Assembly (NCBI GenBank): GCA_009917695.1
Contig: JAACJG010000023.1
Coordinates: 1-32,220, forward strand
Reading direction: 5' to 3'
Origin: Candidatus Rifleibacterium amylolyticum
GTDB lineage: Bacteria > Muiribacteriota > Ozemobacteria > Ozemobacterales > Ozemobacteraceae
Length of the DNA stretch: 32,220 bases
Shown here one piece after another: positions 1,801 to 28,376 of the stretch. The first letter of the stretch is position 1; each line of letters opens with the position of its first letter. Both the position numbers and the translations under genes were made by a program. The notes under the pieces are model-generated. The model saw only the letters and a program-made list of their open reading frames with translations, was not told the origin of the DNA and searched no databases.

Positions 1801-1812
1801 AAAACCTGCCTG

Positions 1813-2412
1813 TCAGTTGATTCTTACGATACCGGAAAACCCGATAAAGGCCATCGCGATTATACCGGTAATGACCAGCGCTATGCCGGCGCCTTCGAGT
1901 TCAGGGATAACCTTGGATTTCTTTTCCATGCGGGCTCTGATGCCGGCCAGTGCGGCAATGGCCAGGGCCCAGCCGGTTCCGGCACCGAGGCCGTAGGCTA
2001 TTGACTGAGTAAAGCTGTATTGCCGGATTACCAGAAACAGCGCACAGCCAAGAATTGCGCAGTTAACGGTTATCAGCGGCAAAAAGATGCCCAGTGTCAG
2101 ATAGAGCAGCGTACTGACGCGCTCGATCACCATTTCGATAATCTGCACGAAAGCTGCGATAACCACGATAAACGCTATATACTGCAGGTATTCAAGCTCA
2201 TACGGAACCAGCAGCTTATGATAAACCAGCCAGTTGATAGGAGCCGTAAAGGTCGAAACAAAGATAACGGCAGCTCCCAGCCCGAGAGAACTCTTGAGAT
2301 CTTTGGAAACAGCCAGAAAGGAACACATACCCAGAAAATTGGTAAGCAGAATGTTGTTGGTAGTAATCGCCGCGAAAAAGATGATAAAGGGGTGAACGTT
2401 CTGTATGTCCAT
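1813..2412 (-). CDS. nqrE: Na+-translocating NADH:quinone oxidoreductase subunit E
   Basis: NqrE is an integral membrane subunit (199 residues, about six transmembrane helices) which, with NqrD, forms an inverted-symmetry pair in the Na+ channel and holds a [2Fe-2S] cluster in the membrane. The two expected half-helix motifs are visible: NFLGMCSFL with C30, and ITVNCAILG with C118. These correspond to the cluster cysteines known from the Vibrio complex. The gene lies 3 bases after nqrD. NqrE and RnfA are homologous, but the operon order and the neighbouring NqrB, NqrC and NqrF identify this as NQR. Confidence 0.95.
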   Translation of the reverse strand: MDIQNVHPFIIFFAAITTNNILLTNFLGMCSFLAVSKDLKSSLGLGAAVIFVSTFTAPINWLVYHKLLVPYELEYLQYIAFIVVIAAFVQIIEMVIERVSTLLYLTLGIFLPLITVNCAILGCALFLVIRQYSFTQSIAYGLGAGTGWALAIAALAGIRARMEKKSKVIPELEGAGIALVITGIIAMAFIGFSGIVRIN

Positions 2413-2415
2413 GCC

Positions 2416-3030
2416 TTACCTCTTTTCTCCACCGGATTTAAAAGCCCTGACGATCCAGATGTAGGTGGCAAGAGCAAAAAATCCGCTCGGCGCTATTACC
2501 ATCATATTCCATTTTGTCCAGTCGGCCGGGATCACCTGGATGCCGAAAAAAGAACCGAGACCGAGAGGTTCACGAATCATCGCGATCGGCAGCAACACCA
2601 GAGAATAACCGATGCCGGCGCCAATGCCATCGAGAATTGAATCGACGGGCTTGTTGGCCATGGCGTAGCCTTCGGTGCGCCCCATGACAATGCAGTTGGT
2701 AATGATCAAACCGACGTAGGGACCAAGTTCGTTGCTGATTTCAGGCAAAAAGGCGTCGAGCACGATTTTGATAAAGATGACATAAGCAGCGATGATCAAA
2801 ACCTGAATTATCATGCGCACACGGCGCGGAATCACGTTACGCATCAATGAAACAGTAAAACACGACATAGCCAGTGTAAAAATCAGGCCAAGACACATTA
2901 CCAGTGTATTTTTAACAAGATTGGTAACGGCAAGAGCTGAGCAGATGCCCAGAATCTGCCCGATAACCGGGTTTTCTTCCCACAGCATTCTTTTGAGGGC
3001 GGCAAAGCCCTTGACCGGACCATTGTTCAA
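2416..3030 (-). CDS. nqrD: Na+-translocating NADH:quinone oxidoreductase subunit D
   Basis: NqrD is the membrane partner of NqrE (204 residues, about six helices). The paired cluster-binding cysteines are present: C30 in GQILGICSALAVT and C113 in LIITNCIVMGR. The start is TTG at 3030, in a TTGA overlap with the nqrC stop, with GGGAGG nine bases upstream. The next in-frame Met is residue 15 and would remove a conserved N-terminal stretch, so TTG is preferred. The four-base overlap implies translational coupling to nqrC. Confidence 0.95.
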   Translation of the reverse strand: MNNGPVKGFAALKRMLWEENPVIGQILGICSALAVTNLVKNTLVMCLGLIFTLAMSCFTVSLMRNVIPRRVRMIIQVLIIAAYVIFIKIVLDAFLPEISNELGPYVGLIITNCIVMGRTEGYAMANKPVDSILDGIGAGIGYSLVLLPIAMIREPLGLGSFFGIQVIPADWTKWNMMVIAPSGFFALATYIWIVRAFKSGGEKR

Positions 3031-3662
3031 TTGCTGTTCCCTCCCTGGTTGAGACTGGCAAAGTAAGCCAGCGACCTGTTGACAATCTTTTCAACAGCGC
3101 TGGAGGTGCCGGTGGCACCGGTAATGCCATCAATTTCATCGCCGCGATTTGCTGATCCTTCGGCAACCATGCGAAAATAAAGGCCATCTGACCGTTTTGT
3201 GGCAAATGATCGTTCTTTGAAGCGCGCCTTGAATTCAGGTTCGCTGATGCGACCGCCAAGCCCCGGAGTTTCGCCATGCCTGGTAAATTCTATGCCCTTT
3301 ATCTGCAGGCTTTTGGCATCGACAGCGATAAAGCCGATGATGTTGTCCCAGAAACCCTGACCGGAAAAGGCAAAAACAAACATTTCATCGCCTGAATTCC
3401 GGCGACGGTAACATTCAAAAGCGGCATCACTGGCAAATTTGACTGGTTCGGTCTGTTCGGCGAACAGAACCGGAACCTCAGAATCAGCGACCGGGCGGTC
3501 TGCCGCTATCAGGCCAAACAGGCCAAGAATCACGCGTTGTCGGGCAACGCTGCGGTTAAGCTCGATACGGTCTTTCAAAACGGCATTTATGCCACTGACG
3601 AGAAGCGTGAACAAGGCAGTGACGGCAACAGTGAACAGAAGGGTTTTGATCTTTTCGCTCAT
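3027..3662 (-). CDS. nqrC: Na+-translocating NADH:quinone oxidoreductase subunit C
   Basis: NqrC is anchored by one N-terminal helix (about 8-26) and carries a covalently attached FMN in its periplasmic domain. The flavinylation motif Dgxt(s/g)AT is present as DGITGAT (178-184), predicting T184 as the FMN acceptor. The family signature HGETPGLGGRI lies at 129-139. The 211-residue protein is slightly shorter than the Vibrio homologue. Its ATG overlaps the nqrB stop (ATGA), and its own stop overlaps the nqrD start. The flavin transferase ApbE needed to load FMN is not encoded in this window. Confidence 0.95.
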   Translation of the reverse strand: MSEKIKTLLFTVAVTALFTLLVSGINAVLKDRIELNRSVARQRVILGLFGLIAADRPVADSEVPVLFAEQTEPVKFASDAAFECYRRRNSGDEMFVFAFSGQGFWDNIIGFIAVDAKSLQIKGIEFTRHGETPGLGGRISEPEFKARFKERSFATKRSDGLYFRMVAEGSANRGDEIDGITGATGTSSAVEKIVNRSLAYFASLNQGGNSN

Positions 3663-4723
3663 GTTGCCGCCTTTAGTGATTTTTCCCAGTTGGTGACGGC
3701 AATTTCGATGAGCGGGCCGAATGTATTGCCTAGCAGTATGGCAAACATGAAGCCGGCATTGAAAGCCGAAAGACTGCGAATAATCGCGGCGAGAAAGCCG
3801 ATCAGAAAGGCGTAGAGCCAGCGGGCGGTATTGTTTATCGGAGCGGTGATCGGCTCGGTTGCCATAAAAATCGAAGCGAACAGGGTGCCACCACCAAAAA
3901 CGTTGACCAGATAGCCCTGCCAGAGCGGTAGTGTATCAAGACCAAGCAGATGCATGATGAGTTTGGCGACAAAAAGCCCAACCAGTGGCCCGACCAGCAG
4001 CGGAATGAAAATTACTTTCTGATATAAAAGCCAGGCCAGCGCCAGCAGCAGAAGAATTGCACTGGTTTCGCCGATGCAGCCATTGATATTGCCGACAATC
4101 AGGCGTTTGAGATCGATCTTGTCGAAAGCCTGCAGCACGCGGTCGGCTTCGGCCTGGTTCTGTGCGGCGAGGGCTTCGCGGCGCACCTGGTTGAGTCGCT
4201 TTACCGAAGTAAGGGTTGTCGCGCTGGTGACAGCATCGATGTTATACATGCTCGAATCGACATCGGCGGTGCGGGTGACCGGAGCATAAGCGGCAAAACC
4301 GGCAGCGCCACCCTGAAATGGCACATACCAGCTGGCAGCCAGAGCCGCCGGAAAGCTGATATACAAGAAGCAGCGGCCGACCATGGCCGGGTTGAAAATG
4401 TTCTTGCCGAAGCCACCAAAGACCATCTTGCCGAAAATCATGCAGAAAAAAGCGCCGACGCCTATCATCCAGAACGGGACATTAGGCGGCGAGATAAGCG
4501 CGAGAAGCGCCCCGGTGACCAGCGCAGAGGCTGAGGCCGGCTTGTTTTCGCGGCGGGTAAAAAGGTATTCGGCCAGCCAGCAGCAAAACATGGAGAAAGC
4601 AACATAAACGGCTGAACGCCAGCCAAAATTGTAGACTGCTCCGGTCAGCGGCAGGCTGAGTGCGATGAGCATGTTTATCTGCGGTTTCTGATACAGCACA
4701 TACTGTTTAAGAAAATTTGACAT
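3659..4723 (-). CDS. nqrB: Na+-translocating NADH:quinone oxidoreductase subunit B
   Basis: NqrB is the large membrane subunit that binds riboflavin and a covalent FMN and forms the main Na+ path. The 354-residue sequence has many hydrophobic helices. The flavinylation motif DAVTSAT at 163-169 predicts T169 as the acceptor, and the family stretches FGGFGKNIFNPAM and GNINGCIGETSA are present. It is shorter than typical NqrB (about 400 residues or more). GGGGAA precedes the ATG at 4723. It is the first gene of the transcript; the usual first gene, nqrA, is not upstream. A promoter is seen about 30 bases before the start. Confidence 0.95.
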   Translation of the reverse strand: MSNFLKQYVLYQKPQINMLIALSLPLTGAVYNFGWRSAVYVAFSMFCCWLAEYLFTRRENKPASASALVTGALLALISPPNVPFWMIGVGAFFCMIFGKMVFGGFGKNIFNPAMVGRCFLYISFPAALAASWYVPFQGGAAGFAAYAPVTRTADVDSSMYNIDAVTSATTLTSVKRLNQVRREALAAQNQAEADRVLQAFDKIDLKRLIVGNINGCIGETSAILLLLALAWLLYQKVIFIPLLVGPLVGLFVAKLIMHLLGLDTLPLWQGYLVNVFGGGTLFASIFMATEPITAPINNTARWLYAFLIGFLAAIIRSLSAFNAGFMFAILLGNTFGPLIEIAVTNWEKSLKAAT

Positions 4724-12352: not shown

Positions 12353-12829
12353 ATGAACGAGAACGAAGAGAGCGGCAAACGCGTAAAATGCCCTTTTTGC
12401 GCTGAGCTGATCATGCCGGAAGCTGTTATCTGCAGGTTCTGCCATTCTGATCTGGTTAAACAGAAAGCTGCCACCAGTCAGACTCCCGGGATCTGGCAGG
12501 CAGTGATCTGGAATCTGATCTGCCCGGGTCTCGGAGCCTGGCGCCTGGGATATCGAAGCCGGGGAGCCATTACCATGCTGGTGCTGGTAGGCGCTCTGCT
12601 GATCGGCTCTCTGCAAATTGCATAACTGATCAGTAAAAAAGTAGAAAAAGCCATGCGAACCGGCAACACTCAGATCATCTACAGCCTGACTGAAGAGACG
12701 AAAGACAATTTCTGGCTCGAAGCGTTTTTTTACGGGTATATCATTTCTTTTGTCGATCTGTGGTTTTTGGTTACGAATAAACAAAAATCGACCGAACAGA
12801 AAAACAAAGATGAACCACGACAAACATAG
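12353..12829 (+). pseudogene. Zinc-ribbon membrane protein gene interrupted by an in-frame TAA
   Basis: The frame begins at ATG 12353 with a zinc ribbon (CPFCAELIMPEAVICRFC, residues 13-30: two C-x2-C knuckles), then a hydrophobic PGLGAW...GYRSRGAITM region of the kind seen in small zinc-ribbon/TM2-like membrane proteins. It meets TAA at codon 91 (12623-12625) in the middle of a hydrophobic helix. The same frame continues without another stop to TAG at 12827-12829. The continuation is protein-like: LISKKVEKAMRTGN..., then a second hydrophobic helix FFYGYIISFVDLWFLV. A single C-to-T change in a Gln codon (CAA to TAA) would explain it. The end overlaps the start of the giant cyclase by 20 bases, suggesting coupling. 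It could be a true nonsense mutation, a sequencing error, or two products. Confidence 0.7.
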
Positions 12830-15800
12830 CCGTGCCGGCAGCAGGCAGACTGCGCACCTGCCGGTCATACTCTGGATATTGCCGCTTCTTGCGATCAATA
12901 TCGGGTTCAGCTTTTTCGCAAGAATTGACGCATACTGGCAGAAACACGAGCAGGAAATCGAGGCCAGACAGGAAGTCGAAGCGCTCGCAGCAGGCTCGGA
13001 TTTTTCTTATCAATATGCGCGCAGAGCCGGAGAATTTGCTGAAGAGTTCAAAGCCGGCGTCGAAGCCGGTTTTAATGACGCCCAGCTGTCTGAGCACCTC
13101 AAAAGTCGAGAACAGCGGATATTTCGCTGGCCGTTTCCTGACTATGAACTTTTCACTTTCAAGGTGCCGGCAAAAGGCGCTTCTGGCAAGCTTCTTCACT
13201 TTAAAACCAGTGCCCCGCCGATACAGCGGGTTCTGATCAGAACTTTTTCGCACCTGGTTCAGGCAAACAAACATGGCAATGCCGAAGATGAGGCTGGAAA
13301 GCAGAATGAGCGCATGCTCAGCGGCCTGTTCGGTTCAGACACCAGGTCGGATGTAACAGCTCACAGCCAGAAGGGCAAAGCAACTTTCGTCATGTATCGC
13401 GGTCTGCCGTCATGGTTTCTTTGGGACTATTTCGAAACCGCAGATGGAACTGTGCTGGGATATTATCTGCTGAGCCGCTTCAGCGAAAGGCATGAGACAG
13501 CCGGACGACTGCTGGCCCTGCGCGACCTGCGCGAACGCAAACAGGCTCTGGGCGCTTTTATACCGGTTCTTCTCGGTCAGGGCGGCATAATAGGCAACGC
13601 CAGGCTTGAACATTCAGGAATTTTCAGAAACTGGGCACTGGAATATGCCGGCATCGCCGAGCGCAACCTTGAAAAGTGGCTTGCCTCGGGCACGCCAGAA
13701 GTCACCAGACTTGGCAATTATCTGGCTTTTTCTTATATAGGCAAAAGTCAGAGTCATCTGGCCGTTTATCTGACGCCGATAATCGCAAAACCTGGCAGGC
13801 CGCTGTGGTTGTTCTTATTCAATCTCGGCAGCATGGGCCTGCTGATACTGATGATACTCCGTGGCCTGCTGCTTAAACAATGGCCCGAATTCAATCTGAG
13901 ATTCAGATTCATCATGACCTATCTGCTTTCGGCAACCCTGCCGTTGAGCCTGCTGATAATATCTTCATATGGTTACATAGCGCAATACCGCAGGGCAGCG
14001 CACTTTGAAACCATCAACAGAATACAGCTCAGCATCAAACAGTTCGATACCCGCAAATCTCAGATAGAAGAAGACTATCGCATTGCATTCAACAATATCT
14101 TCAAAGATGAGAAGCTGCAGAAGATTCTTACCGAGCAGGGATGCAGGAGCAAAGAAGCTATCGCGCAGATACGGTCTCACTTTTTCAGCGCTGGCCAGAA
14201 ATTGCCGTTGCTCTATCTTGCCATTATCGATGAAAATGGCGAAGGTGAACGCTATTACGAGGGTCAGAAAAAGGCCGAAGCTGATCCTTCGATCGATGCC
14301 TTCAGTTACCCTATTGCCCAGCTGATCAGAAACAAAATCACAGCGCACGACCCGCAGGTAAAATTCGAAGAACTGCAGGCTTCCGGGATTCAGAAAACCG
14401 CAGCTGAAGCATATAAATCCATGGCCGGCAGAACGATGGTCAGCGAAGTCGACAGCAGGCGGTCTTTTCCGATAAAACGCCAGATCGGTGCCAGCACTGC
14501 AACTCAGATGCATGAGCTTTTCTGGATAAATGGCCGCGAAAAATACGCTATTTTTGTTTCCTGGGATGACCAGGCTCTCGATAAAGTTATCTTCAAAAAT
14601 TCTCTCAATCAGATCGCCCTGAACAATCCATCATTTAATTTTGTAGGATTCAAGGCCGATCCGCAGGGTTTCAGCTTTCTGGACAAGCCCGACCGTCATA
14701 TCGATGGCGATTTTGTCGACAATGCACGCGAGCTTGCTCTGATGGCTAAGTTTAGAGGCAGTTACGCCTCTAAACAGTATGATAACCTTTCGCTGGTCGC
14801 CATGCCTGCCAAGAAATATGACCAGGTAATTATAGTGGGCGGAACCCAGCACTTCAGTCTGAATCGGGCAATTGATTACCGCATGTTCGTACTTCTGGTA
14901 ATTCTACTGCTCTCTCTCGCCGTAGTTCTGATCGCCAGTTATTATTCAGCCAAGCTGATTCTTGACCCTATTGAAACGCTAAAAACCGCGATAGAAAGAG
15001 TTGCCAGCGGGCACCTTACGACTGAAATTGAAAGTCACAGCGAAGATGAGCTGGGAATTCTCTGTCGCGAGTTCTCGACTATGGCGGTAGGCTTGCGCGA
15101 ACGCAAACGCCTGGCGACCCTGCTTTCGGATCAGGCAATGGATGCCATAACCAAAACTGGTGATGGCAGCCGCCTGTTCGATAACGAAACGTTTTCTGGC
15201 GTGGCACTTGTGTCAGACATCAGAAACTTTACCGGGATCTGCGAAGATTACCCGCCTGACAAAGTAACGGAGCTGCTTAACGAGCACTTTGCCAGCATGG
15301 CCGCCATCATTTCAAGCTATGGTGGTCGCATCTACAAGTTTGTCGGCGATGCCATCGAAGCGGTTTTCCCTGAAGTCCGAGATTCGTCTGAAGATGCGGC
15401 AACCAGGGCGTTCAATGCTGCTGCCATGATGTTGATCAAAGCAAGACAGATCAACCAGGTTCGTTTACGGCGAAAGCTGTTTGGTTACAAGATCGGAATA
15501 GGTCTGGCCTACGGCACTATGCACTCCGGAACTATCGGCAGCATTGAAACCAGGCTCGACTACGCAATAATCGGCGAGCCGCTCAAACTTGCCGCAAAAC
15601 TCGAAGCACTTTCCAGTCAGATACAGGTCTTTCCGATGGTTCTTGATGCTCACATCAACAAAGCATTACAGGGCCACGGGCTAGTCTTCAAAGAGTTCAG
15701 CGAAGTTGATGGACAACAAGCTTACTGTCTGTATGAAATTGGCGAAGGCAGCAATCCCCTGACAATAATTGAGCAGAAACAGGGACTTGCCAGCTCGAAT

Positions 15801-18764
15801 CGCAAAGCGGCTGATGAAGTAGAAAAGTTCGTGGTTGGAACTGGCAAAACGCTTTCGGCAAAAGGCTTTTTTGCTCTAGGTGCAGCACTGGTAGCTGCGA
15901 TTGTTGGCGGAATAATCTTTGCAACCAACATCAGAGAGCATGAGGTTAAACTGCGCCAGCAAAACCTGGCAGCTAACTCAAATCAGCGCATGCTCGAACA
16001 GGTGCGTTCTGAAAACGCTGACCGGATCGGGCTTGAAAACCGTCTGCGCAAGTTAACGGCTGAACTTGAAGAGCGGGCAAACTCGGACAATAAATTTTTT
16101 GATCAGAATCTTGCTGCTTTCCTGGAACCCTACATAGAGACGGGCTCAAACACTGCAGCTATTGCCTCACGTATTGCGGTATATCTGGTAAAGCCCGACC
16201 TGGACAATTCCACACCAACCTGCCAGAGCAGAGAAGCATTTATGCATGGATGGACAAAAAAACAGTCAGCCATGCTGGGAAGACAGGCAGCCCTGAATCG
16301 TCTCGTAGTAAGTATTCCAAATTCAGACAATGTAATGATGGAGCATGAAAACCCCGATTTTGAAAGCCTGTTCGGTGATCAGATAACCGGCAGAATACTG
16401 CATTACGAAACCCTGGGCAAAGTTACCGAAATAATAACAGACGGGCAGAAAGAGTATTTCTTCTGGGACTACATAGTCACCGGCGCAGACCCGAAACGCA
16501 AAGGCGCTTTCGCAAAGTCTGACAAGGCTGAAATTCGCGGTTATATCATGTTCTCGCTGCCAGTTGGCAGCATAAAGGAATCGCCGTCTCAACTTATAGA
16601 GAGTTACGAAACCGATGAACAGAGACTTGCTCTGATCAGTCCCGCCGGAGCAGTTATCAGTTCTGACAAATTCCCGAAAGACTTAAAGCTTAAACTTACC
16701 TACGAAGACCGCCTGCCAGATCATGGTGACGACAAAATCAGCAGTGACTATATTAAAATCGGTCAGGAGCGCTATCGCGCGGTAGTCTGCGCAAAAATAG
16801 AATCAAAAACTATTCTTGAAGAAATCTCGTTCTATCTGGCCCTGCTGATTCTTTCAGCCATCACGCTCAGTATCTGGTGGAAAGCATCTCTGGGCGACTC
16901 ATTTATCAATACCTCGCTAACCGCCAAGCTCTGGCTGACGCTGTTACTCGCTTCAATCGTGCCGCTTACAACCCTGTTTTTCGTTTTCGGACTCTATACC
17001 GACGAAGACTACAGTGTCAGCATTTCGCAAGAAAAGTATGAACTGCACCGGTTCATGGATCTTTTTGAACTGCGCGAATCCTATACCGACCCGCTTGCCT
17101 GGAAAATGATAAGAAACTGGTCGAGAGACGACAAAACACAGGAAGCCGCTGCCATTTTTAACAAAGAGTATGCCCGAAGCGGTCAGATTTCGAGTGAAAG
17201 CCGAAAACTTCTCGACGACATCTTTACTTCATGGTTCAGAGAGCACGAGAAGCTAGACTCCAGACTGATCAATTTCGTTCCACGCGATATCGTTATGGCC
17301 GGAAGTGGCTGGACTCATGTAAGTTCTGGCGCTGACGGCAAAGGACCAAGCAATTTTGCCACCATGCTGCAGGGCACAGCAAAGAATATGGCCGGCAAAA
17401 GATTCAAAACCAGCAAAATCAATGTCCGCCTCGACAGCGAAGCAGTGCAGGGCGAGATTATTGTTGAAACTGGCCTGCAGACGGTCAAATCGCTCTTCGG
17501 CGACGATGTCTTCGTGAGAATGGCACACAGTGTTGAAACTCCAGTGCTCATGAGTGCCATCAGCGGCACTATCGGGATCATAACACATATGGTTCCAGAT
17601 ATTGAGAATCCTGAATATATGATTCTGTGGATGGTCGCCTTTGAATACGAAAATTACCTGAATCGTCTGGCATATCGCTATCATGGCAAATATGACATCT
17701 TCGCTGCCCTCTCCCATCGCCACAGTGCGATAGTAGACCCGAGAATGGCCAATTACCGGAATGATCTGGCGATGATTGGCGCCTGGATCACATCTGCCAA
17801 TTTACCATTGTCGCGCCAGATAGAACGTTCGGGTGAACGTTTTCTGGTCGAAGGCAGACCAGGTGTATCGCAATTGTCTTCATTTCTGGTAGCCACTTCT
17901 TCTGAAGCTCCGATACAGGCAAAAATTGCCGGCAACCGTGTCATGTTCTGGCTCTCATTTCTGCTATCAGTAGTTCTCATACTTGTTATCGCCAAGAATG
18001 CCGCAGCCGACATCCTTACCCCGGTTGAAAGTCTGATCAGAGGGATGAAATTTGCTTCATGCGAAAATTACTCATTTCGTATCAACATGAAACGGGCTGA
18101 TGAACTCGGCAATCTTTGTAACGCCTTTGATTCAATGATGCGTGGGCTTGAAGAAAAGAACCTGATGGGCAAGATGCTTTCAAAAAGTGCGCTGAATTTC
18201 AGTGAGCAGAATGGCAGCGACAGCAGCACCGGTGAGTTCGTCTTTCTTTACATCGGCATACCATCATTTACCTCATGGGTCGCCGGGTCACCGGTAGAAC
18301 AGATGTTTATAGATCTCAAAGAACAGATCACTCAGATATCAGGCTTTGTTATTGGCGAAGGCGGCGATGTCGACAAGATTATCGGCGACAAGATGCTGGC
18401 TGTATATGCAGTAAACGGAAGCCTCCAGGATGCAGTCGATTCGGCATGCCGAACTGCTATTAAAATAATTACCGCCGAGAGCCGCGCCAACCTCCCATTC
18501 CCGGTAGCCATAGGAATCAACTGTGGCAAAGTAATAACCGGAGTATTGGGAGTCGGTGATAAACGCGACTTCACCGTAATTGGCGATGCCGTAAATGTTG
18601 CGGCCAGAATAGAAAGTGTCGCCGAAGTTCTCAGATACCAGCGCTGCCTGCTCTCAGAGAGCGTGTTCAAAGCCATAAAGCCAGGTGTGATTGCCCGCGA
18701 ATATGGCGAAGTAGAATTAAAGGGCAAAGCCATGCCGGTAAAAGTCTATCAGCTTTCAATCTGA
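12810..18764 (+). CDS. Giant two-domain class III adenylate cyclase with duplicated membrane sensor (paralogue 1)
   Basis: 1984 residues from ATG 12810 (an upstream in-frame ATG at 12750 adds 20 Arg/Asn/Lys-rich residues and is less likely). Order: TM 18-38, extracytoplasmic region with WDY 205-207, TM about 332-354 and 366-388, second sensor region, TM about 692-715, HAMP about 716-768, cyclase domain 1 about 795-960. The plan then repeats: TM 1019-1041, coiled coil, extracytoplasmic region with WDY 1219-1221, TM near 1340-1359, 1374-1396 and 1711-1731, HAMP, cyclase domain 2 about 1808-1980. Domain 1 has metal Asp D803 and D847 but K926 and K930 where Asn and Arg belong. Domain 2 has G1816 for the first metal Asp but K1856, D1920, N1929 and R1933. 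The Lys/Asp pair predicts ATP as substrate. The ribosome site is weak; translation may be coupled to the overlapping upstream frame. Confidence 0.93.
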   Translation: MNHDKHSRAGSRQTAHLPVILWILPLLAINIGFSFFARIDAYWQKHEQEIEARQEVEALAAGSDFSYQYARRAGEFAEEFKAGVEAGFNDAQLSEHLKSREQRIFRWPFPDYELFTFKVPAKGASGKLLHFKTSAPPIQRVLIRTFSHLVQANKHGNAEDEAGKQNERMLSGLFGSDTRSDVTAHSQKGKATFVMYRGLPSWFLWDYFETADGTVLGYYLLSRFSERHETAGRLLALRDLRERKQALGAFIPVLLGQGGIIGNARLEHSGIFRNWALEYAGIAERNLEKWLASGTPEVTRLGNYLAFSYIGKSQSHLAVYLTPIIAKPGRPLWLFLFNLGSMGLLILMILRGLLLKQWPEFNLRFRFIMTYLLSATLPLSLLIISSYGYIAQYRRAAHFETINRIQLSIKQFDTRKSQIEEDYRIAFNNIFKDEKLQKILTEQGCRSKEAIAQIRSHFFSAGQKLPLLYLAIIDENGEGERYYEGQKKAEADPSIDAFSYPIAQLIRNKITAHDPQVKFEELQASGIQKTAAEAYKSMAGRTMVSEVDSRRSFPIKRQIGASTATQMHELFWINGREKYAIFVSWDDQALDKVIFKNSLNQIALNNPSFNFVGFKADPQGFSFLDKPDRHIDGDFVDNARELALMAKFRGSYASKQYDNLSLVAMPAKKYDQVIIVGGTQHFSLNRAIDYRMFVLLVILLLSLAVVLIASYYSAKLILDPIETLKTAIERVASGHLTTEIESHSEDELGILCREFSTMAVGLRERKRLATLLSDQAMDAITKTGDGSRLFDNETFSGVALVSDIRNFTGICEDYPPDKVTELLNEHFASMAAIISSYGGRIYKFVGDAIEAVFPEVRDSSEDAATRAFNAAAMMLIKARQINQVRLRRKLFGYKIGIGLAYGTMHSGTIGSIETRLDYAIIGEPLKLAAKLEALSSQIQVFPMVLDAHINKALQGHGLVFKEFSEVDGQQAYCLYEIGEGSNPLTIIEQKQGLASSNRKAADEVEKFVVGTGKTLSAKGFFALGAALVAAIVGGIIFATNIREHEVKLRQQNLAANSNQRMLEQVRSENADRIGLENRLRKLTAELEERANSDNKFFDQNLAAFLEPYIETGSNTAAIASRIAVYLVKPDLDNSTPTCQSREAFMHGWTKKQSAMLGRQAALNRLVVSIPNSDNVMMEHENPDFESLFGDQITGRILHYETLGKVTEIITDGQKEYFFWDYIVTGADPKRKGAFAKSDKAEIRGYIMFSLPVGSIKESPSQLIESYETDEQRLALISPAGAVISSDKFPKDLKLKLTYEDRLPDHGDDKISSDYIKIGQERYRAVVCAKIESKTILEEISFYLALLILSAITLSIWWKASLGDSFINTSLTAKLWLTLLLASIVPLTTLFFVFGLYTDEDYSVSISQEKYELHRFMDLFELRESYTDPLAWKMIRNWSRDDKTQEAAAIFNKEYARSGQISSESRKLLDDIFTSWFREHEKLDSRLINFVPRDIVMAGSGWTHVSSGADGKGPSNFATMLQGTAKNMAGKRFKTSKINVRLDSEAVQGEIIVETGLQTVKSLFGDDVFVRMAHSVETPVLMSAISGTIGIITHMVPDIENPEYMILWMVAFEYENYLNRLAYRYHGKYDIFAALSHRHSAIVDPRMANYRNDLAMIGAWITSANLPLSRQIERSGERFLVEGRPGVSQLSSFLVATSSEAPIQAKIAGNRVMFWLSFLLSVVLILVIAKNAAADILTPVESLIRGMKFASCENYSFRINMKRADELGNLCNAFDSMMRGLEEKNLMGKMLSKSALNFSEQNGSDSSTGEFVFLYIGIPSFTSWVAGSPVEQMFIDLKEQITQISGFVIGEGGDVDKIIGDKMLAVYAVNGSLQDAVDSACRTAIKIITAESRANLPFPVAIGINCGKVITGVLGVGDKRDFTVIGDAVNVAARIESVAEVLRYQRCLLSESVFKAIKPGVIAREYGEVELKGKAMPVKVYQLSI

Positions 18765-18814: not shown

Positions 18815-21800
18815 TTGAACAACAGGGTTAGAAATTCTGTATTGATCTTGCTTTTGCTGATACCCGTGCTATCAGCAAACTACGGCTACAAAGAAATCAT
18901 CTCGATCATAACCAGATGGAAAAATGTTGAACAGGAACGTACCGCGAACCTGAAACTCGGCGAAATCTCGGTACAGATTGATATTTCACAACATATCTCC
19001 GCCTTTAGTGCTTCGTTTCGAAACACACTCAATGATCTGCAAAGTCAGTATCCAGATGAGATGCCTGCTGGCATTCAGTTCTCAGGTATTGCATCAGCGG
19101 TTTTCAAAGCTCCTTTTCCAGAATACGAGCTTCTGGTGTTTTCGCGCACTCATTCACAGCGACAGTCCTCACTGATATTCAGTAACTGCAGCACCAGAAA
19201 CCGGCGTTCGGCAGAGCTGGTTTTTGACCATCTGCTCGCTGAAAACCGTGACAGTCAAAGAAGTGACGGCGAAGCCAGAAGAAACGAAAAGCTCCTGAGA
19301 CGCCTGTTTGGCATGGTCACTCTTGGCAGAGTACTCGCGTGCAACCAGAAAGGCGTATGTACACCGATAATCTACGATCAGCTGCCATCGTTTCTGTCAT
19401 GGGATTACTCGATCAGCGACAGTGGCAACATCCTGGGATTTTTTCTAATTGTCAAGCGCAATCAGGATCTTCAAAAAAGCGCATATGCTCTCGGAGCAGA
19501 AAAAACTGGCGTCGGACGTGAGTACCCAGGTGGATTTGTTTCGATATTTGACAATGGCGAAGACTATTTTTTCCCTGACCGGTTAGCAAAATCTGCGTCT
19601 CTGCAGGGCTGGCGCAAAACCTTGGGAAATGTTCTCTCAGACCGCTTACGCTGGGAAAAGGAAGGCTTTCCATGGGGAAGCAGGCTTGGCAAGCACAAAC
19701 TTTTCACCCGTGTCTTACCAAAAAACCCGCATATCGCCTTTATCCTCATGCCGGATCTTGCCCCGACCGGTCTGCCAATATGGATGAAAGCAATCAATCT
19801 GCTGTCACTGACTTTGATACTGCTTCTTTTTCTCCGCGGCCTGCTTCTTGATATCTGGCCGTTTGCAGCAATTGGCAGCCGCTTTCTCGTCGCATTTCTG
19901 CTGGCAGCTACTCTGCCGGCCGCTCTCTATGTCACTTCTGCAACCGCATATACCTACGAGCGCCACAATGCTGATGAAAACCAGATAGAAGAAACTCTGA
20001 CCGCATGCCTGCTCGACTTCGATGCCGGCAAGGAATACCTCGAGAACATCTATATGTCGGTATTTGCCGAGATGATGAATGATGAAGCCATAAAGAAACT
20101 GCTGGCCGAAAAAGGTCTGGATGCTTCAGACGAGATCTTCGCAAGAATCAGGGACCGGGCTGAGGCATGTCCTGAGAAGATACCCATATCGGGAATCGCA
20201 TTATACGATCTGGCCGGCAATGCCAGATTCAATGTCAGCGGCAATATAATCAGAGATGATTTTGTCTCGATGGCAAGCTTTTACGGTCTGCCCATCACCA
20301 ATAACCTGCAGCTCTTCGTCAGCAAAGATGAGCCTGACTTCGTATTGCCCGAGCATAAAAAGAATCCTGGCCATGTCGCGGCGGCTCAATCTTTCAGACG
20401 CGACACTCATGATCTTGACTATGAAATAGAACGCTTCAGGCACCGCGTGATAAAAACCAGCTTTGGCCAGGGCCATATTGAATACATTTATGATTTTATC
20501 AGCTTGAATGGCAAACAACGCTTTTCTCTGATGTTAGCCTGGATGGAATCAGAAATTAACCAGACAGTATTGCGACAAAGCGCGATAAAACTGGCTTTGA
20601 GCAACCCTGGAATACAAATAGCCGGTTTCAGAAAAACTTCGGGCGGGGTTGAGTCTATACTCGACATTGACCGCAGCATCAGCCCACAGTTACTTAACCG
20701 CTTCGCCCAGGCTGCCAGAGCGTCACTGAGCATGAAGTCCGGCATGGTAAAAACCCTGTTCGACAATCAGTCGATAGTAGCTTATGTTTCAAGCAACTTT
20801 GAAGACACTGTTCTAATTGCTGCTTTTGACCATCGTCAAAAAAACATTGCGCACTGGCTGCGCATTATCAGTTTCGTTGCGACAGGCCTGGCTGGTCTCC
20901 TGATTCTGGTATTGAGCGGGATCACTATTTATGCAAGAGCGGTTCTGCCTTTGAAGCGGGTCAAGGATTCTCTCGACCAGATCGACTCAGGCGCTTTCCC
21001 CGACATACCCTTTACTCAACGAAAAGACGAGATCGGTCTGCTCAACAATGAGTTTTCTGCAATGGTAAAAGGCCTCGAAGAAAGGCAACGGCTCGCTTCG
21101 ATGCTGTCTGAGCAGGCTCTTTCTGCTATTTCAGCCAGCACTGACGGAACGCGGCTAAGGTCAGAAGCAATGACCGGGGTGGTAATGATTTCTGACATCC
21201 GCGATTTCACTACAATGTGTGAAAAGTATGATCCAAAAATCGTAACCCGTCTGCTGAACGTCCACTTTGCGGAAATGGCCAGCGTTATCACCAGCTTTGG
21301 CGGACGCATTTACAAGTTTATCGGCGACGCTATTGAAGCGGTTTTCATCGACGACTCCGGCAACACGCAGTCAGCTTCCATACGAGCGTGCCTGGCTGCC
21401 TCGGCCATGTTGCTGCGTCTGCAACGCATCAATCAACGCCGCCTGTCTGACGGCAGGTTCAGTTATCGAATTGGCATTGGCATCGCAGCCGGGCGTATCG
21501 TTGCCGGCGAGGTCGGCAGCAAAGAGAGTCGTCTTGACTATGCCATGTTCGGAGAAGCTTTCAAATGGGCAGAAAAACTTGAGGCTGCAACAAAAAAATT
21601 TCCGGAATGCCCACTTTTGATAGATCAGGAGGTTGCCTCCCAGGCTTCTGCTGACTGTTTCGAATGGGTCGAGGAAAAGATTGAAAACAGGCCGGTATTC
21701 AGACTCTCCAGTATTAGCGACAACCTTAAAAACATGACGGGCAAGATTATCGGCAGTTCTTTAGATTCTTCCAGACAGCAAACGAGAACAGAAAAAACTG

Positions 21801-24790
21801 AAAAGTCAGGCGAAAGCTGGTTCGACCGGAACCAATCGTTTTGCCGACGTCTTGTCTATCTGGCAGGATTGATCTGCATATTGTTTCCGGTGCTGGCTGT
21901 AGCTCTGGCAGTTCATACGACTGACCTGGCAGCAGAAGAACGCATGCAGAGAGAAACAGCCAGACAATGCAAAAGTGCTCTGGCCAAGCTTGAAGTTGCC
22001 GACCTCGAGGCCGTCCTGCTTGAGCAGTATCTTGACAATCTCTGCGAAAATACTTCGAAGGAAATCGCATGGGATCGAAGTGGCATAGATGTTGAAACAA
22101 CCCGAGCTCAGGCCGATAAAATAAAGCAACAGCTTGATTCTGCAGGTCTTAAGCAGCAGGTTTTTGCAGTATTGCACAAACCTGGCGACAATACAGATTT
22201 TGAGCCTGATGAACGATGGCAGTTAGTGAGTTATCATGGAAAAGCAGAGTTCGGCCCCTATTATCGAGAACTTTTGCAGACACTTCTCAAGGCTATATTT
22301 ATCTCCGGCTGGCCGAATCTGCCGCATATCAGGTCGAAGATGCCCATATTGATGGGCTCGAACATGGCAATAAGCCATATTTATCTCGAACTCTACGCCA
22401 GAATTGTGCAGATTCAGCGTGCCGGTGTGAATGAATATTTTTACTGGCAACCCCTGATGGTAAGAAATTCGGAAAAAGCAGCCGGACTAACTCAGGTTCC
22501 CAGGCTTGATATGCGCAAGCATGTAAGAGAATCAGCTGATTACATGCTCAACAACGCTGCTATTCTGTGCATCTTTGAAAAAGACATTGCAGATAGAAAT
22601 CATCTTGAACCTCTTAAAAATCTGCTGAACCACCAGCAACTCAGTTACGCCATCGTCAGACAGGACTCGACCATAGTTGCTTCTACAGAGCCATTTTCCG
22701 GAAAAAAAATTGATTTTAGCGGCCAGCAGCAGCAAATGGAAGGCTGGCACACTGTTTCCACAACAGTTCGACTCGGGCAGGAAAACTACAGAGTATTGAT
22801 TGGCAAAGCCTATACGAGGTCAGGTATTCGGATAAAAAATCTGCTGATATATTTTGCCCTTATCATGTTCACCCTGGCAGCATTGCGCATGTGGAGCAGA
22901 GCGTTTTATCATGAAAGCGGCATAGCAGCGAAGTTTTCGTGGCAACTCTGGCTGGGACTGTTTGCTGCGGCAATAGTACCCCTGGCAAGTGTTTATACAG
23001 TAAACGAGTGGTTTGCAAGCGGGCAGATCGATTTGCGACCAGTTGAAGAGCGGCTGAAAATGTTTGATGAACTGGAAAGAGCTGAGCGCCGACAGTTTTT
23101 GCAGGAGCAGTCAAACTGGTACAGTCTCGAACAGGTGACAAGAGATGCCGGATTGCGAAAGGCTGCAGATAAAGTTGTCAATATAAAGAATGCCGAAGAT
23201 GCTGCAGAATTCAACGATGCTGTCACCGCGCTAATCAGAAAGGCCAGAGAAAAAAACAGGTCGGTCAGGCATAATGACATGCTCATATTCAGCCATCATG
23301 GCTGGCAGTACAGCTATGCAGAGCCAGATTCATCAGAAACCAAACGTGACGAATTCAGACGTTTTCTCGACTTCTTCGTAAGCAACATTTTTTTTCAGCT
23401 TGGAATGGGTAAAGAAACGGCAAGCGAAAAGAACCAGTCGGTTGGCGCCGGAGTTAAAGCCGAAATCACCAGCAGTGCCGGGCTCGAGGTATTTCGCAAC
23501 CTTTTTGGCAGTGATGCTTATTTCACTCTGGTCAACGGTATCGACTTGAAAATTGATATTTTCATTGCCTCCGGACACGGACTGTTAAGCCTGATATCGG
23601 CACCTGGCCTTTCCAGACCCGAACTTCTGGTTTTCTGGCTATTTTTCGATAATCTGAATTCGCAGATGCAGAGAATATTTTCTCAGATCACCGCCAGATA
23701 CCAGGCATTTACCGAGTCAAAAGTCAGATACGGTTCGCTCAAGATGTCTCACAACGGCGGCCTCGACATTACACCGGCTTATTATGGCAGATGGGCAGTG
23801 GCAACCAAGATGCCGATCAGTGAGCGAACTTCATTTCTGGGCAGAGAATGCATGGTTGAAGCCAGATGGAGCCGACAGAACGAAGTCATGATAATTATCG
23901 GATTCATACCAGTGCATTACTTTCTTGACGAGATCGAAACGACCAGAAAACATTTTCTGGCGCTGCTGGGTCTGGCCGTTCTGGCGATCATTCTGCTCAC
24001 CCTGTTCGTATCATATGACATAACCGGGCCGATTCTGGCGCTGACCCGTGGCGCCAAAAAAATCGCATCGCGCCAGCTTGAATACCGCATCATCGACGAT
24101 AGAAAAGATGAGCTGGGACAGATGCAGAGTACCTTCAATACTATTGCCCGTGGACTTCAGGAAAAGGAACTGATGGGACAGATGGTTTCGAGCGCTGCCA
24201 GACGTATTGCCAGTGACGCTGGCAGTCTGCGCGAAGCCGAAGCCGGGCTGCATCTCAGCGTCAGCGTGCTTTATCTGGCAGTACCGCAGTTTGCTCTGTT
24301 CATGCAGTCGATGAGTCATCAGGAACTCATTGCCGAAGTCAGAGAACATATCGACTGCCTGTGCCATATTATCATCAGCAATGGCGGTGAAGCCGACAAA
24401 ATAATGGGTGAAAAAGTGCTGGCCTGGTTTTACAGTCCAGAGGGAGAAAAAACCAGCACTGCGATGGCTGCCAAGGCAATGAAAGAGATCAGAGATGCCG
24501 AAAGAACAGGAAAACTAAAATTTCCTGTCACGGCAGGCGTTCACAACGGCGAAATCATTGCCGGCCTGCTTGGATTCGGCTCACAAAGAGACTTTACCAT
24601 AATCGGTGATCCGGTCAATACTGCCGCCAGAATCTGCAGTCGGGCGGCCGAACTGCCAGCAGACCGGTTTATCGGAAGCGAAGCCTTCGTCAACAGTCTG
24701 CCAGCCGGCACTGCTCGCTATTACGATTTCGGGCAGGTTCAGTTAAAAGGTAAAGCTGAAACGGTAAATCTCAAGCAGATAGTATTTTAG
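18815..24790 (+). CDS. Giant two-domain class III adenylate cyclase with duplicated membrane sensor (paralogue 2)
   Basis: 1991 residues, starting at TTG 18815 (an in-frame stop at 18800 leaves no better start), 50 bases after paralogue 1. The order is the same: signal anchor about 9-24, sensor with WDY at 196-198, TM near 324-346, 357-378 and 684-708, HAMP, cyclase domain 1 (787-950). Then TM 1013-1035, sensor with a WQP remnant at 1211, TM near 1341-1359, 1378-1397 and 1713-1735, HAMP, cyclase domain 2 (1806-1985). Domain 1 keeps metal Asp D794 and D838 but has K917 and K921 instead of Asn and Arg. Domain 2 has lost both metal Asp (A1822, E1866) but keeps K1862, D1926, N1935 and R1939. The split of catalytic roles is cleaner than in paralogue 1. 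The stop overlaps the convergent next gene by four bases. Confidence 0.93.
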   Translation: MNNRVRNSVLILLLLIPVLSANYGYKEIISIITRWKNVEQERTANLKLGEISVQIDISQHISAFSASFRNTLNDLQSQYPDEMPAGIQFSGIASAVFKAPFPEYELLVFSRTHSQRQSSLIFSNCSTRNRRSAELVFDHLLAENRDSQRSDGEARRNEKLLRRLFGMVTLGRVLACNQKGVCTPIIYDQLPSFLSWDYSISDSGNILGFFLIVKRNQDLQKSAYALGAEKTGVGREYPGGFVSIFDNGEDYFFPDRLAKSASLQGWRKTLGNVLSDRLRWEKEGFPWGSRLGKHKLFTRVLPKNPHIAFILMPDLAPTGLPIWMKAINLLSLTLILLLFLRGLLLDIWPFAAIGSRFLVAFLLAATLPAALYVTSATAYTYERHNADENQIEETLTACLLDFDAGKEYLENIYMSVFAEMMNDEAIKKLLAEKGLDASDEIFARIRDRAEACPEKIPISGIALYDLAGNARFNVSGNIIRDDFVSMASFYGLPITNNLQLFVSKDEPDFVLPEHKKNPGHVAAAQSFRRDTHDLDYEIERFRHRVIKTSFGQGHIEYIYDFISLNGKQRFSLMLAWMESEINQTVLRQSAIKLALSNPGIQIAGFRKTSGGVESILDIDRSISPQLLNRFAQAARASLSMKSGMVKTLFDNQSIVAYVSSNFEDTVLIAAFDHRQKNIAHWLRIISFVATGLAGLLILVLSGITIYARAVLPLKRVKDSLDQIDSGAFPDIPFTQRKDEIGLLNNEFSAMVKGLEERQRLASMLSEQALSAISASTDGTRLRSEAMTGVVMISDIRDFTTMCEKYDPKIVTRLLNVHFAEMASVITSFGGRIYKFIGDAIEAVFIDDSGNTQSASIRACLAASAMLLRLQRINQRRLSDGRFSYRIGIGIAAGRIVAGEVGSKESRLDYAMFGEAFKWAEKLEAATKKFPECPLLIDQEVASQASADCFEWVEEKIENRPVFRLSSISDNLKNMTGKIIGSSLDSSRQQTRTEKTEKSGESWFDRNQSFCRRLVYLAGLICILFPVLAVALAVHTTDLAAEERMQRETARQCKSALAKLEVADLEAVLLEQYLDNLCENTSKEIAWDRSGIDVETTRAQADKIKQQLDSAGLKQQVFAVLHKPGDNTDFEPDERWQLVSYHGKAEFGPYYRELLQTLLKAIFISGWPNLPHIRSKMPILMGSNMAISHIYLELYARIVQIQRAGVNEYFYWQPLMVRNSEKAAGLTQVPRLDMRKHVRESADYMLNNAAILCIFEKDIADRNHLEPLKNLLNHQQLSYAIVRQDSTIVASTEPFSGKKIDFSGQQQQMEGWHTVSTTVRLGQENYRVLIGKAYTRSGIRIKNLLIYFALIMFTLAALRMWSRAFYHESGIAAKFSWQLWLGLFAAAIVPLASVYTVNEWFASGQIDLRPVEERLKMFDELERAERRQFLQEQSNWYSLEQVTRDAGLRKAADKVVNIKNAEDAAEFNDAVTALIRKAREKNRSVRHNDMLIFSHHGWQYSYAEPDSSETKRDEFRRFLDFFVSNIFFQLGMGKETASEKNQSVGAGVKAEITSSAGLEVFRNLFGSDAYFTLVNGIDLKIDIFIASGHGLLSLISAPGLSRPELLVFWLFFDNLNSQMQRIFSQITARYQAFTESKVRYGSLKMSHNGGLDITPAYYGRWAVATKMPISERTSFLGRECMVEARWSRQNEVMIIIGFIPVHYFLDEIETTRKHFLALLGLAVLAIILLTLFVSYDITGPILALTRGAKKIASRQLEYRIIDDRKDELGQMQSTFNTIARGLQEKELMGQMVSSAARRIASDAGSLREAEAGLHLSVSVLYLAVPQFALFMQSMSHQELIAEVREHIDCLCHIIISNGGEADKIMGEKVLAWFYSPEGEKTSTAMAAKAMKEIRDAERTGKLKFPVTAGVHNGEIIAGLLGFGSQRDFTIIGDPVNTAARICSRAAELPADRFIGSEAFVNSLPAGTARYYDFGQVQLKGKAETVNLKQIVF

Positions 24791-26252: not shown

Positions 26253-28376
26253 ATGAACGAATTTGCAGAGGGCAATCCGGCAGCAGCTGCCGAAAACGGT
26301 CAGCAACCGGCGACAGGAAACTCTTCGGGCAGTAATGCTGTCGAAAAGATTGGCTTTTTTCAGAGTATCAAGCTCAGAGCCTGGGCAGGCATCTTTCTGC
26401 TCACGCTGATTCCGCTGCTTCTGCTCGGCGGCTATGCCTTCAATATTCTGGGCGACATCGCCAGAAATATTCTCATCGAGGGCAATATACAAGCTTTTCA
26501 GCAGGTCAAATACGAAGTTGACCAGTATGTCAGTGGTTATGATGAGCTTACCGGGTTTCTTGCCAAAGATGTGCGACTGCAGAACCCCGGCAGTCCAGAG
26601 GCACGGCAGGCGCTGCAACAGCTCGATCAGGCCTACGAATACGTCGAAAGAATAGTATTGTGCGGCGCCGACGGCACGCTGCTTTCGCACTCAAAACCTG
26701 ACAGTGAAGCGATAACTGAGCTGAGCGTTCCAGAAAAGCTTTTATTCAACATGTCTGATCGCATCTTTTTTTCGCCGGAAGCTTTTCATGTGAAGGCCGC
26801 GATCAGCAACGACCCGGACTCTCCGCTGATCATCAGTACGATATCTTTTCTCAAGCTGCGCAAATCGCTTGAGGGAATCACCTTTGGTACAAATTTCCGC
26901 TATTTTCTGGTCACACAGAATGGCGAAAACATACTGGAACAGCCTGATTTTCCGAAAGATCTGATTGCCGAACTCATGGAGAAGCAGTGCGGAGCCTACG
27001 ACCTGCTGCCCGAAAAATCCGGCATATCTCCACAGCTCGTAATTTCGCTGCCCATACTGCAATACGGCCTGCGCATCTTTGTTTTTCAGAATGCCGGCGA
27101 TGTTTATGCGGTTGCGCGCTCGATCGGCAGTAAAACACTCAATTTCACCCTGCTTCTCTGTGCGATCGCCTTTATCATGGCAACCTATTTCAGCCACCGC
27201 ATGACCAGCCCGGTCATTCAAATTGCGCGCAAGGCCAATGAAATGAGCGAAGGCAATCTGACCGCCCGAGTAGCGATCAACAGCAGCGATGAAATAGGTT
27301 TTCTCGCACGCAGCTTCAACCACATGGGCGACCGCATTCACAAAAAGGTATTCGAACTCAGCGCCATGTACCGCGTAACCCAGCTGATAAACACCTCTGC
27401 CACCTATCAGCAGGCTCTCGATGGCTGTCTCGAGCACCTGATCGAAATTTTCAAGGCACAGCGTGGTTCTATCATGCTGCTCAACGAAGACAAAACCAGA
27501 CTGCGCGTCGAAAGTTTTCGCCAGGCCGATAAGTCAGGCAGTGACAGCGACAGAACTCCTAAAACCCGTCTCGAACTCAGGCTCGGCGAAGGCATCGCTG
27601 GCGAGGTGGCCGAAAGCGGTCAGGCCATTCTCTGCATGGACTGCAAAACCGACGAACGTTTCAAAAATTACGATGCGCAGAATGACCTCAAATCACCAGG
27701 AACCTTGATATCAGTGCCTCTGACTGTGCATGGCAACACCATGGGCGTCATCAATCTGACCGACCGTTCCAACAGCCAGCCGTTCAGTCAGGAAGACCTC
27801 GATCTGCTGCTGGCCATAGCCAAGCAGATGGCGATGTCGATCGACAATGCCAGACTGCACGACCTTTCGATCAGCGATGGGCTGACCGAGCTTTACATCA
27901 GGCGCTTTTTCGAAATTCGTCTCGAAGACGAGATCAAGCGTGCGCGGCGTTTCAGCTTTCCGCTGACTCTGGTCATGTTCGATGTCGATGACCTGGCAAA
28001 GGTTAACGAAGCGAGAGGTCGTAAAGCCGGCGATGTTGTGTTGTATGAAATCGCCCGCATACTGAAAGACTCAGTGCGCGCAACCGATATTCCGGCCCGG
28101 TTTGGCGAAGAAGAATTTGCTGTCATTCTTGCCCACACCACTGCTGACCAGGCACTGATTTTTGCCGAGCGCCTGCGCGAACGCATTGCCGCCCAGAAGA
28201 TCACAACCCCCACCGGAGAGGTACAAGTCACAGTCAGTGTCGGAATTGGCGAATACGACTCTGGCATAGAGCGCCATTATCAGCTGGTTGAGCACACACA
28301 GAAGGTTCTTGCCGAAAGCAAGCAAAAGGGTAAAAACCGCACAACCACATGGAAGAAGAAGGAGCCGAAGGCATGA
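26253..28376 (+). CDS. Membrane sensor diguanylate cyclase-like protein (extracytoplasmic sensor-HAMP-GAF-GGDEF)
   Basis: 707 residues. TM 43-64, an extracytoplasmic region of about 230 residues (probably Cache-type), TM about 296-316, HAMP about 317-370, GAF about 385-540 and a GGDEF domain about 545-695. The active-site loop reads GEEEF (618-622) instead of GGDEF/GGEEF. The I-site RxxD is present as RATD (609-612), five residues before it. Metal residue D577 and N585 are present, but the usual DhFKxxND segment reads DDLAKVNE. Activity is therefore plausible but uncertain; it may act as a c-di-GMP receptor. ATG 26253 has AGG seven bases upstream. Its stop overlaps the next gene (ATGA), so a periplasmic binding protein is translated with it. 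Confidence 0.92.
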   Translation: MNEFAEGNPAAAAENGQQPATGNSSGSNAVEKIGFFQSIKLRAWAGIFLLTLIPLLLLGGYAFNILGDIARNILIEGNIQAFQQVKYEVDQYVSGYDELTGFLAKDVRLQNPGSPEARQALQQLDQAYEYVERIVLCGADGTLLSHSKPDSEAITELSVPEKLLFNMSDRIFFSPEAFHVKAAISNDPDSPLIISTISFLKLRKSLEGITFGTNFRYFLVTQNGENILEQPDFPKDLIAELMEKQCGAYDLLPEKSGISPQLVISLPILQYGLRIFVFQNAGDVYAVARSIGSKTLNFTLLLCAIAFIMATYFSHRMTSPVIQIARKANEMSEGNLTARVAINSSDEIGFLARSFNHMGDRIHKKVFELSAMYRVTQLINTSATYQQALDGCLEHLIEIFKAQRGSIMLLNEDKTRLRVESFRQADKSGSDSDRTPKTRLELRLGEGIAGEVAESGQAILCMDCKTDERFKNYDAQNDLKSPGTLISVPLTVHGNTMGVINLTDRSNSQPFSQEDLDLLLAIAKQMAMSIDNARLHDLSISDGLTELYIRRFFEIRLEDEIKRARRFSFPLTLVMFDVDDLAKVNEARGRKAGDVVLYEIARILKDSVRATDIPARFGEEEFAVILAHTTADQALIFAERLRERIAAQKITTPTGEVQVTVSVGIGEYDSGIERHYQLVEHTQKVLAESKQKGKNRTTTWKKKEPKA

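Follow-up and report, generated by a model that had tools for sequence, protein, structure and literature searches.

A 32,220-nucleotide (nt) stretch of contig JAACJG010000023.1 from Candidatus Rifleibacterium amylolyticum (assembly GCA_009917695.1, positions 1 to 32,220; hereafter the window) was found to encode a large membrane protein, open reading frame (ORF) 1, in which two class III cyclase domains divide the residues of one complete active site between them. The first domain (C1) contributes the metal-binding Asp pair, the second (C2) contributes the transition-state Asn and Arg, and the same division recurs in a second fused chain just downstream (ORF2) and in paired cyclase domains throughout the genome. 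Judged from these sequence patterns, ORF1, ORF2 and proteins of their type are very probably obligate heterodimeric receptor adenylate cyclases with a single active site.

Division of active-site residues in ORF1 and ORF2

Pfam searches identified two PF00211 (Guanylate_cyc) and two HAMP domains in ORF1, with a PF00211 protein score of 100.8 bits, over two stretches, against a cut-off of 21.9. In a genome-wide alignment of cyclase domains, the positions for metal 1, metal 2, purine Lys, purine Asp, transition-state Asn and Arg read D, D, K, D, K, K in domain 1 and G, D, K, D, N, R in domain 2. A preliminary description of this DNA had drawn attention to D803, D847, K926, K930, G1816, K1856, D1920, N1929 and R1933, all of which were confirmed in the translation numbered from the ATG at 12810. 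Its proposal of one live and one dead site was likewise borne out, in that a full residue set is obtained only when domains 1 and 2 are combined. Absent from that account were Lys843 and Asp917, retained at the purine positions of domain 1, and the second metal Asp of domain 2, D1860, which is also retained; the dead site of ORF1 thus lacks one metal Asp, the Asn and the Arg.

The motifs of domain 1 (VSDIRNF, YKFVGDA and LDYAIIGEPLKLAAKL) and those of domain 2 (YIGIPSF, DKIIGDK and RDFTVIGDAVNVAARI) align with one another without gaps, hence misalignment was rejected as the source of the split. Both catalytic domains were found to be under purifying selection, with CHD amino-acid identities to orthologues of 68-82% whilst synonymous sites were (nearly) saturated. 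This selection, together with the complementarity of the losses, led us to reject the decay of a redundant domain as an explanation.

The two domains of ORF2, a protein that the preliminary description did not mention, read D, D, K, D, K, K and A, E, K, D, N, R, and are therefore split as in ORF1. The ORF1-ORF2 tandem is conserved in four related loci (L050, L051, L056 and L063), with the ORF1 orthologues in L050 and L051 comprising 1982 and 1985 amino acids (aa), respectively.

Complementary half sites across the genome and the Riflebacteria

A census was taken of every PF00211 domain in the 5.39 Mb assembly (61 in total), without selection for the split pattern. Domains that kept both metal Asp and had lost the Asn and/or Arg were termed C1-type (metal-only), and those that had lost at least one metal Asp and kept the Lys, Asn and Arg were termed C2-type (Asn/Arg-keeping). 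By this scheme 18 domains were C1-type, 18 were C2-type, 23 were complete and two were neither. All 36 half-site domains were located in 18 mixed neighbouring pairs, five of them fused chains (approximately 2000 aa) and 13 encoded by adjacent genes (approximately 1000 aa each), with the 23 complete and the two degenerate domains lying outside pairs; the chance of obtaining 18 mixed pairs out of 18 under random pairing of those 36 domains is 2.9e-5. Up to 30 isozymes per strain has been given as the bacterial range (PMC9552081), compared with the 61 domains here. The genome also encodes 19 cyclic nucleotide monophosphate-binding domains, one of which adjoins a split pair (locus C1:274142); their presence is consistent with cyclic AMP (cAMP) signalling, though not specific for it.

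In named genomes, the sequences closely related to domain 1 all came from Candidatus Riflebacteria (61-73% identity). A C1-type profile (A1) matched all 40 Riflebacteria genomes searched, many of the matches being ordinary complete cyclases, and split pairs were present in several other genera of the organism's own family (f1) as well as in a second family (f7). A further locus, L054, holds an ordinary complete cyclase.

Among 77 pairs drawn from this genome and its relatives, both metal Asp of C1 and the Lys, Asn and Arg of C2 were present in every pair, whilst no C2 domain carried both metal Asp; since the relatives' regions were picked by C1-type matches, the C1 counts are partly a product of selection, unlike the state of the partner. 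The adenine Asp was kept in 71 of the 77 C2 domains, with Ser or Glu in its place in the other six. Beyond the catalytic residues, a T, an E and a G were invariant in C1 only, and a V, an N and an R in C2 only. Near-invariant segments comprised the metal/triphosphate loop DIRxFTxxxE in C1 and TxIGDxVNxAAR in C2, along with a C-terminal KGK motif that was nearly invariant in C2 and not in C1. This asymmetry of conservation matches the division of labour between C1 and C2 of the animal enzymes.

Both gene orders occur in the unfused pairs, 28 being C1-first and 20 C2-first in a script count that joined one pair of L097 to the wrong neighbour (in that locus C2 in fact precedes C1; the residue counts do not change in kind). 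The paired genes mostly overlap, most commonly by 4 nt, which suggests translational coupling. Partnerless half-site domains in the survey adjoin the edge of the fetched stretch or contig.

Two further loci were encountered in other families. A lone C1-type domain in family f6 (L117:1066-4575; Asn to Glu, Arg to Ala) lies near a contig start and had no partner in its stretch. In family f2, a separate complementary pair (L115:3794-8120, minus strand) carries Pfam-recognised dCache sensors, with the first metal Asp replaced by Lys in one member and the Asn by Ser in the other; these two cyclases are mutual closest relatives, and the pair apparently arose recently.

Origin, proposed mechanism and genomic setting

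In a FastTree phylogeny of 207 domains, the 81 C1-type domains clustered together with two exceptional C1 partners that keep Asn and Arg (support 0.98), and all 80 C2-type domains formed a second group (support 0.96). When the six catalytic columns and their neighbours were masked, 79 of the 80 C2 domains still grouped (support 0.94 in both programs), and the C1 group consisted of all 81 members, the two exceptions and one C2 domain, along with two complete singletons in one of the trees. The persistence of these groups indicates that the division is of old standing and does not simply reflect the catalytic columns. The trees of the partners were correlated: across the 77 pairs the mirror-tree r was 0.85, where none of 2000 shuffles exceeded 0.10, and among the 18 pairs of this genome alone it was 0.77, where the maximum over 5000 shuffles was 0.43. 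The split-site reading, first made for ORF1 alone, holds also for ORF2 and the family as a whole, and fits the family-wide conservation, the masked trees and the correlated partner trees.

The sensor blocks of the C1 and C2 halves are themselves homologous (hhalign probability 100, E 4e-43, 741 columns). Detectably homologous sensors were also found in two complete cyclases of the same genome, C4:476260 (1018 aa) and C3:124119 (968 aa), which lie near the C1 clade in the masked tree and, being presumably symmetric, look like the ancestral form. Fused chains did not form one clade, such that fusion may have occurred more than once, with supports too low for the events to be counted. The split appears to have arisen within the Riflebacteria, apparently independently of the animal enzymes.

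Each half of ORF1 comprises four hydrophobic segments around two regions of about 300 aa, followed by a HAMP domain and the cyclase domain. In half 1 the segments were placed by hydropathy at aa 19-37, 332-350, 367-385 and 692-710, enclosing two extracytoplasmic regions. An AlphaFold model of this half (predicted local distance difference test score, pLDDT, 72.8) was matched by Foldseek chiefly to ligand-binding dCACHE domains from chemoreceptors, with E values as low as about 5e-5 and TM, relative to the target, reaching 0.46; no Pfam cache family matched the sensor regions of half 1 and its relatives. At least one extracytoplasmic region per half is predicted to be dCACHE-like. A PF00672 HAMP domain follows the last transmembrane helix in both halves of ORF1 and in nine of nine relatives of half 1.

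We propose that ORF1 and ORF2 are membrane receptor adenylate cyclases, in each of which the two halves form an obligate heterodimer. The C1 domain would supply the metal and triphosphate side through its two Asp and the DIRxFTxxxE loop, and the C2 domain would supply the Lys/Asp pair for adenine and the Asn/Arg pair for the transition state, with head-to-tail pairing producing one working site, converting ATP to cAMP, and one dead site. Signals from the two extracytoplasmic sensor regions of each half would pass via the HAMP relay to the cyclase domains, so that up to four input regions could converge on one active site. This arrangement probably originated through duplication of a symmetric cyclase of approximately 1000 aa in the Riflebacteria and subsequent division of the active-site residues, after which the partners would have multiplied as co-expressed gene pairs, some of them fusing into 2000-aa chains.

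Several observations weigh against this account. The C1 and C2 labels are residue-defined, and independent support comes from how the domains pair, from the masked trees and from the mirror-tree correlation. Two C1 partners (L055_13030 and L092_5270) keep both the Asn and the Arg, hence the division is not absolute on the C1 side. The placement of those C2 domains that carry His at the metal 1 position was unstable, falling with C2 in two trees (all but one domain in the masked one) and on the C1 side in an outgroup tree, which makes a single origin of all C2 domains uncertain. An AlphaFold model of aa 785-1984 (10 sequences) folded both catalytic domains with pLDDT mostly of 70-90; at a mean pLDDT of 54 and a predicted template modelling score of 0.34, it did not show the domains packed and is too weak to inform on pairing. 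The only long Foldseek match of this model was human AC5, at a root-mean-square deviation (rmsd) of 42 Å, and the same search gave no single-chain two-domain match with an acceptable rmsd.

With regard to the exceptional domains themselves, those in L055:13030-19041 (domain 1) and L092:5270-8215 belong to the C1 clade and have C2 partners that lack a metal Asp, so that on the C1 side the division is either incomplete or reversed. The His-bearing domains, found in the present genome (G000; loci C2:209909 and C2:215905) and in L062, L083 and L089, may be a separately derived C2 partner.

Pairing could alternatively take place between chains, domain 1 of one copy meeting domain 2 of another in a dimer of fused chains. 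Receptors with HAMP and dCACHE domains are usually parallel dimers, and the computed results do not separate intrachain from interchain pairing; the unfused C1 and C2 genes, however, match each half in size, so that a C1 half with a C2 half already resembles a symmetric receptor dimer, the unit that fusion would join. We consider the interchain arrangement unlikely, whilst rating it well above the other alternatives.

A product other than cAMP, such as cyclic GMP, is improbable. The purine-site residues only suggest the base, and the Ser or Glu found in six C2 domains could be taken to favour such a product, but in class III adenylate cyclases it is Lys/Asp that selects adenine, and the Lys is present in 77 and the Asp in 71 of the 77 C2 domains, both window proteins included.

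It is slightly less probable still that domain 1 or domain 2 is a regulatory or scaffolding pseudocyclase beside a partner active as a homodimer. Degenerate cyclase domains can turn regulatory, and each domain has individually lost residues; against this, neither domain holds a full residue set in 75 of the 77 pairs, and the lost sets are complementary. As C2 never carries both metal Asp and C1 is rarely complete, no C2 homodimer and almost no C1 homodimer would be active. The least credible alternative is a catalytically dead pair serving as a nucleotide or ligand sensor, for although both partners are degenerate when taken singly, one complete site is fully conserved across many genera whilst the other drifts, and a dead enzyme would not be expected to keep the full set.

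The features of both chains are collected in the table below.

Features of ORF1 and ORF2 in window coordinates
Feature	Position	Strand	Basis or remark
ORF1, putative fused heterodimer-type class III cyclase	12810..18764	+	Start at ATG 12810 (1984 aa); open frame extends back to TTG 12750
Half 1 membrane/sensor block, aa 19-710	12864..14939	+	Hydropathy, AlphaFold model, Foldseek
HAMP domain 1, aa 714-764	14949..15101	+	Pfam PF00672
Cyclase domain 1 (C1-type), both metal Asp kept	15174..15767	+	Pfam, alignment, translation check
D803, metal Asp (cyclase domain 1)	15216-15218	+	
D847, metal Asp (cyclase domain 1)	15348-15350	+	
K926 at Asn position (cyclase domain 1)	15585-15587	+	
K930 at Arg position (cyclase domain 1)	15597-15599	+	
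Half 2 membrane/sensor block, aa 1020-1729, four hydrophobic segments	15867..17996	+	Hydropathy, hhalign against half 1
HAMP domain 2, about aa 1721-1782	17970..18155	+	Second Pfam HAMP stretch; position via HAMP-containing NCBIfam matches
Cyclase domain 2 (C2-type)	18213..18761	+	Pfam, alignment, translation check
Gly1816 at first metal Asp position (cyclase domain 2)	18255-18257	+	
K1856, D1860, D1920, N1929, R1933, kept (cyclase domain 2)	18375, 18387, 18567, 18594, 18606	+	
ORF2, second fused cyclase of like build	18815..24790	+	1991 aa, 50 nt downstream of ORF1; Pfam, alignment
ORF2 cyclase domain 1 (C1-type); Asp, Asp, Lys, Asp kept, Asn to Lys, Arg to Lys	21152..21745	+	Alignment
ORF2 cyclase domain 2 (C2-type); first metal Asp to Ala, second Asp to Glu, Lys, Asp, Asn, Arg kept	24236..24787	+	Alignment

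Just downstream of the tandem, a HAMP-GAF-GGDEF diguanylate cyclase is encoded at 26253-28376 (plus strand), which matches the cyclase sensor-block profile (E 3e-15), possibly via its HAMP domain. Elsewhere in the window, Rnf/Nqr-type genes occupy 700-4723 on the minus strand (an NqrF-like reductase, an Rnf-Nqr membrane protein, an NQR2/RnfD family member and neighbours); a search with NQRA_N only found no NqrA N-domain anywhere in the assembly, a genome approximately 96% complete.

Comparison with known cyclases

The animal enzymes ADCY1-9 share with ORF1 the order membrane-C1-membrane-C2 in one chain and complementary sites of which one is live and one dead, with C1 giving the two metal Asp and C2 the Lys/Asp and Asn/Arg. 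The preliminary description had called ORF1 animal-like, which holds for this mechanism, but neither for sequence and fold affinity nor for the membrane part. The best solved relatives of the ORF1 catalytic domains are bacterial (bPAC, OaPAC and CyaB), with ADCY8 (E 2e-4 and 3e-5) and AC5 near the threshold. Unlike the hexahelical anchors of ADCY1-9, each half of ORF1 has four predicted transmembrane helices, two large extracytoplasmic regions and a HAMP domain.

Two complementary cyclase domains in one chain are also a feature of ADCY10 and of bacterial tandems resembling soluble adenylyl cyclase (sAC). A paper of 2004 on bacterial sACs reportedly dealt with Chloroflexus enzymes containing two catalytic domains. 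In sAC-like proteins the cyclase domains are adjacent and followed by AAA and TPR domains, with no membrane sensor (as in L121, below), whereas approximately 810 residues of membrane sensor and HAMP separate those of ORF1, in which a Pfam scan found neither AAA nor TPR. Bacterial sACs with a conserved domain structure are the subject of that 2004 paper, as listed under reference [74] of PMC3085406.

Mycobacterial Rv1625c/Cya and other bacterial class III cyclases resemble ORF1 in their membrane-anchored class III chemistry, but the Rv1625c/Cya type forms symmetric homodimers with two live sites. Obligate heterodimers of unlike subunits are known from soluble guanylate cyclase (sGC) alpha/beta and the fungal NeoR/RGC; sGC is guanylate-specific and NeoR/RGC is light-gated, and both are without dCACHE-like sensors. 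These heterodimers are eukaryotic (PMC8815786 and PMC3591389).

A control search of 15 genomes from other bacterial groups retrieved two further kinds of split cyclase, on separate tree branches. L121:2651-6550 and L124:2-3760 are sAC-like tandem cyclase domains with split residues (with AAA and TPR in L121), and a claim that no bacterial tandem cyclase exists was accordingly discarded as too strong. L122:2353-9299 and L123:2474-9422 (genomes G068 and G107) each contain two neighbouring cyclase genes, a C2-type followed by a C1-type, whose half sites are complementary. They resemble the Riflebacteria pairs in being adjacent and differ in their CHASE2 sensors and in being unfused; these pairs apparently represent an independent origin of a heterodimeric cyclase. 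Bacterial class III adenylate cyclases are typically monomers that dimerise (PMC12505454, 2025), and according to a 2022 review (PMC9552081) no fused dimeric class III adenylyl cyclase is known from bacteria, whilst what advantage the fused form brings is an open question. Given the sAC-like tandems and CHASE2 pairs of the control genomes, that statement is too strict; complementary split cyclases recur in bacteria, and paired complementary cyclase genes may, as the control genomes hint, be commoner among bacteria than the literature states.

The single-chain membrane-receptor form appears to be new, as does the extensive radiation of paired forms within the Riflebacteria, both apparently undescribed in the open-licence literature. 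The occurrence of symmetric, gene-pair and fused forms of one family in one genome renders the steps from homodimer to pseudoheterodimer directly comparable and testable. The family also suggests a general design whereby input from several sensor regions is gathered at one active site. On balance, we lean towards several separate origins of obligate heterodimeric class III adenylate cyclases of receptor type in bacteria. The Riflebacteria would then present an 18-pair radiation with every stage preserved, from symmetric ancestors through overlapping gene pairs in either order to single-chain fusions, as an independent parallel to the origin of the animal enzymes, the dead site possibly serving as an allosteric pocket.

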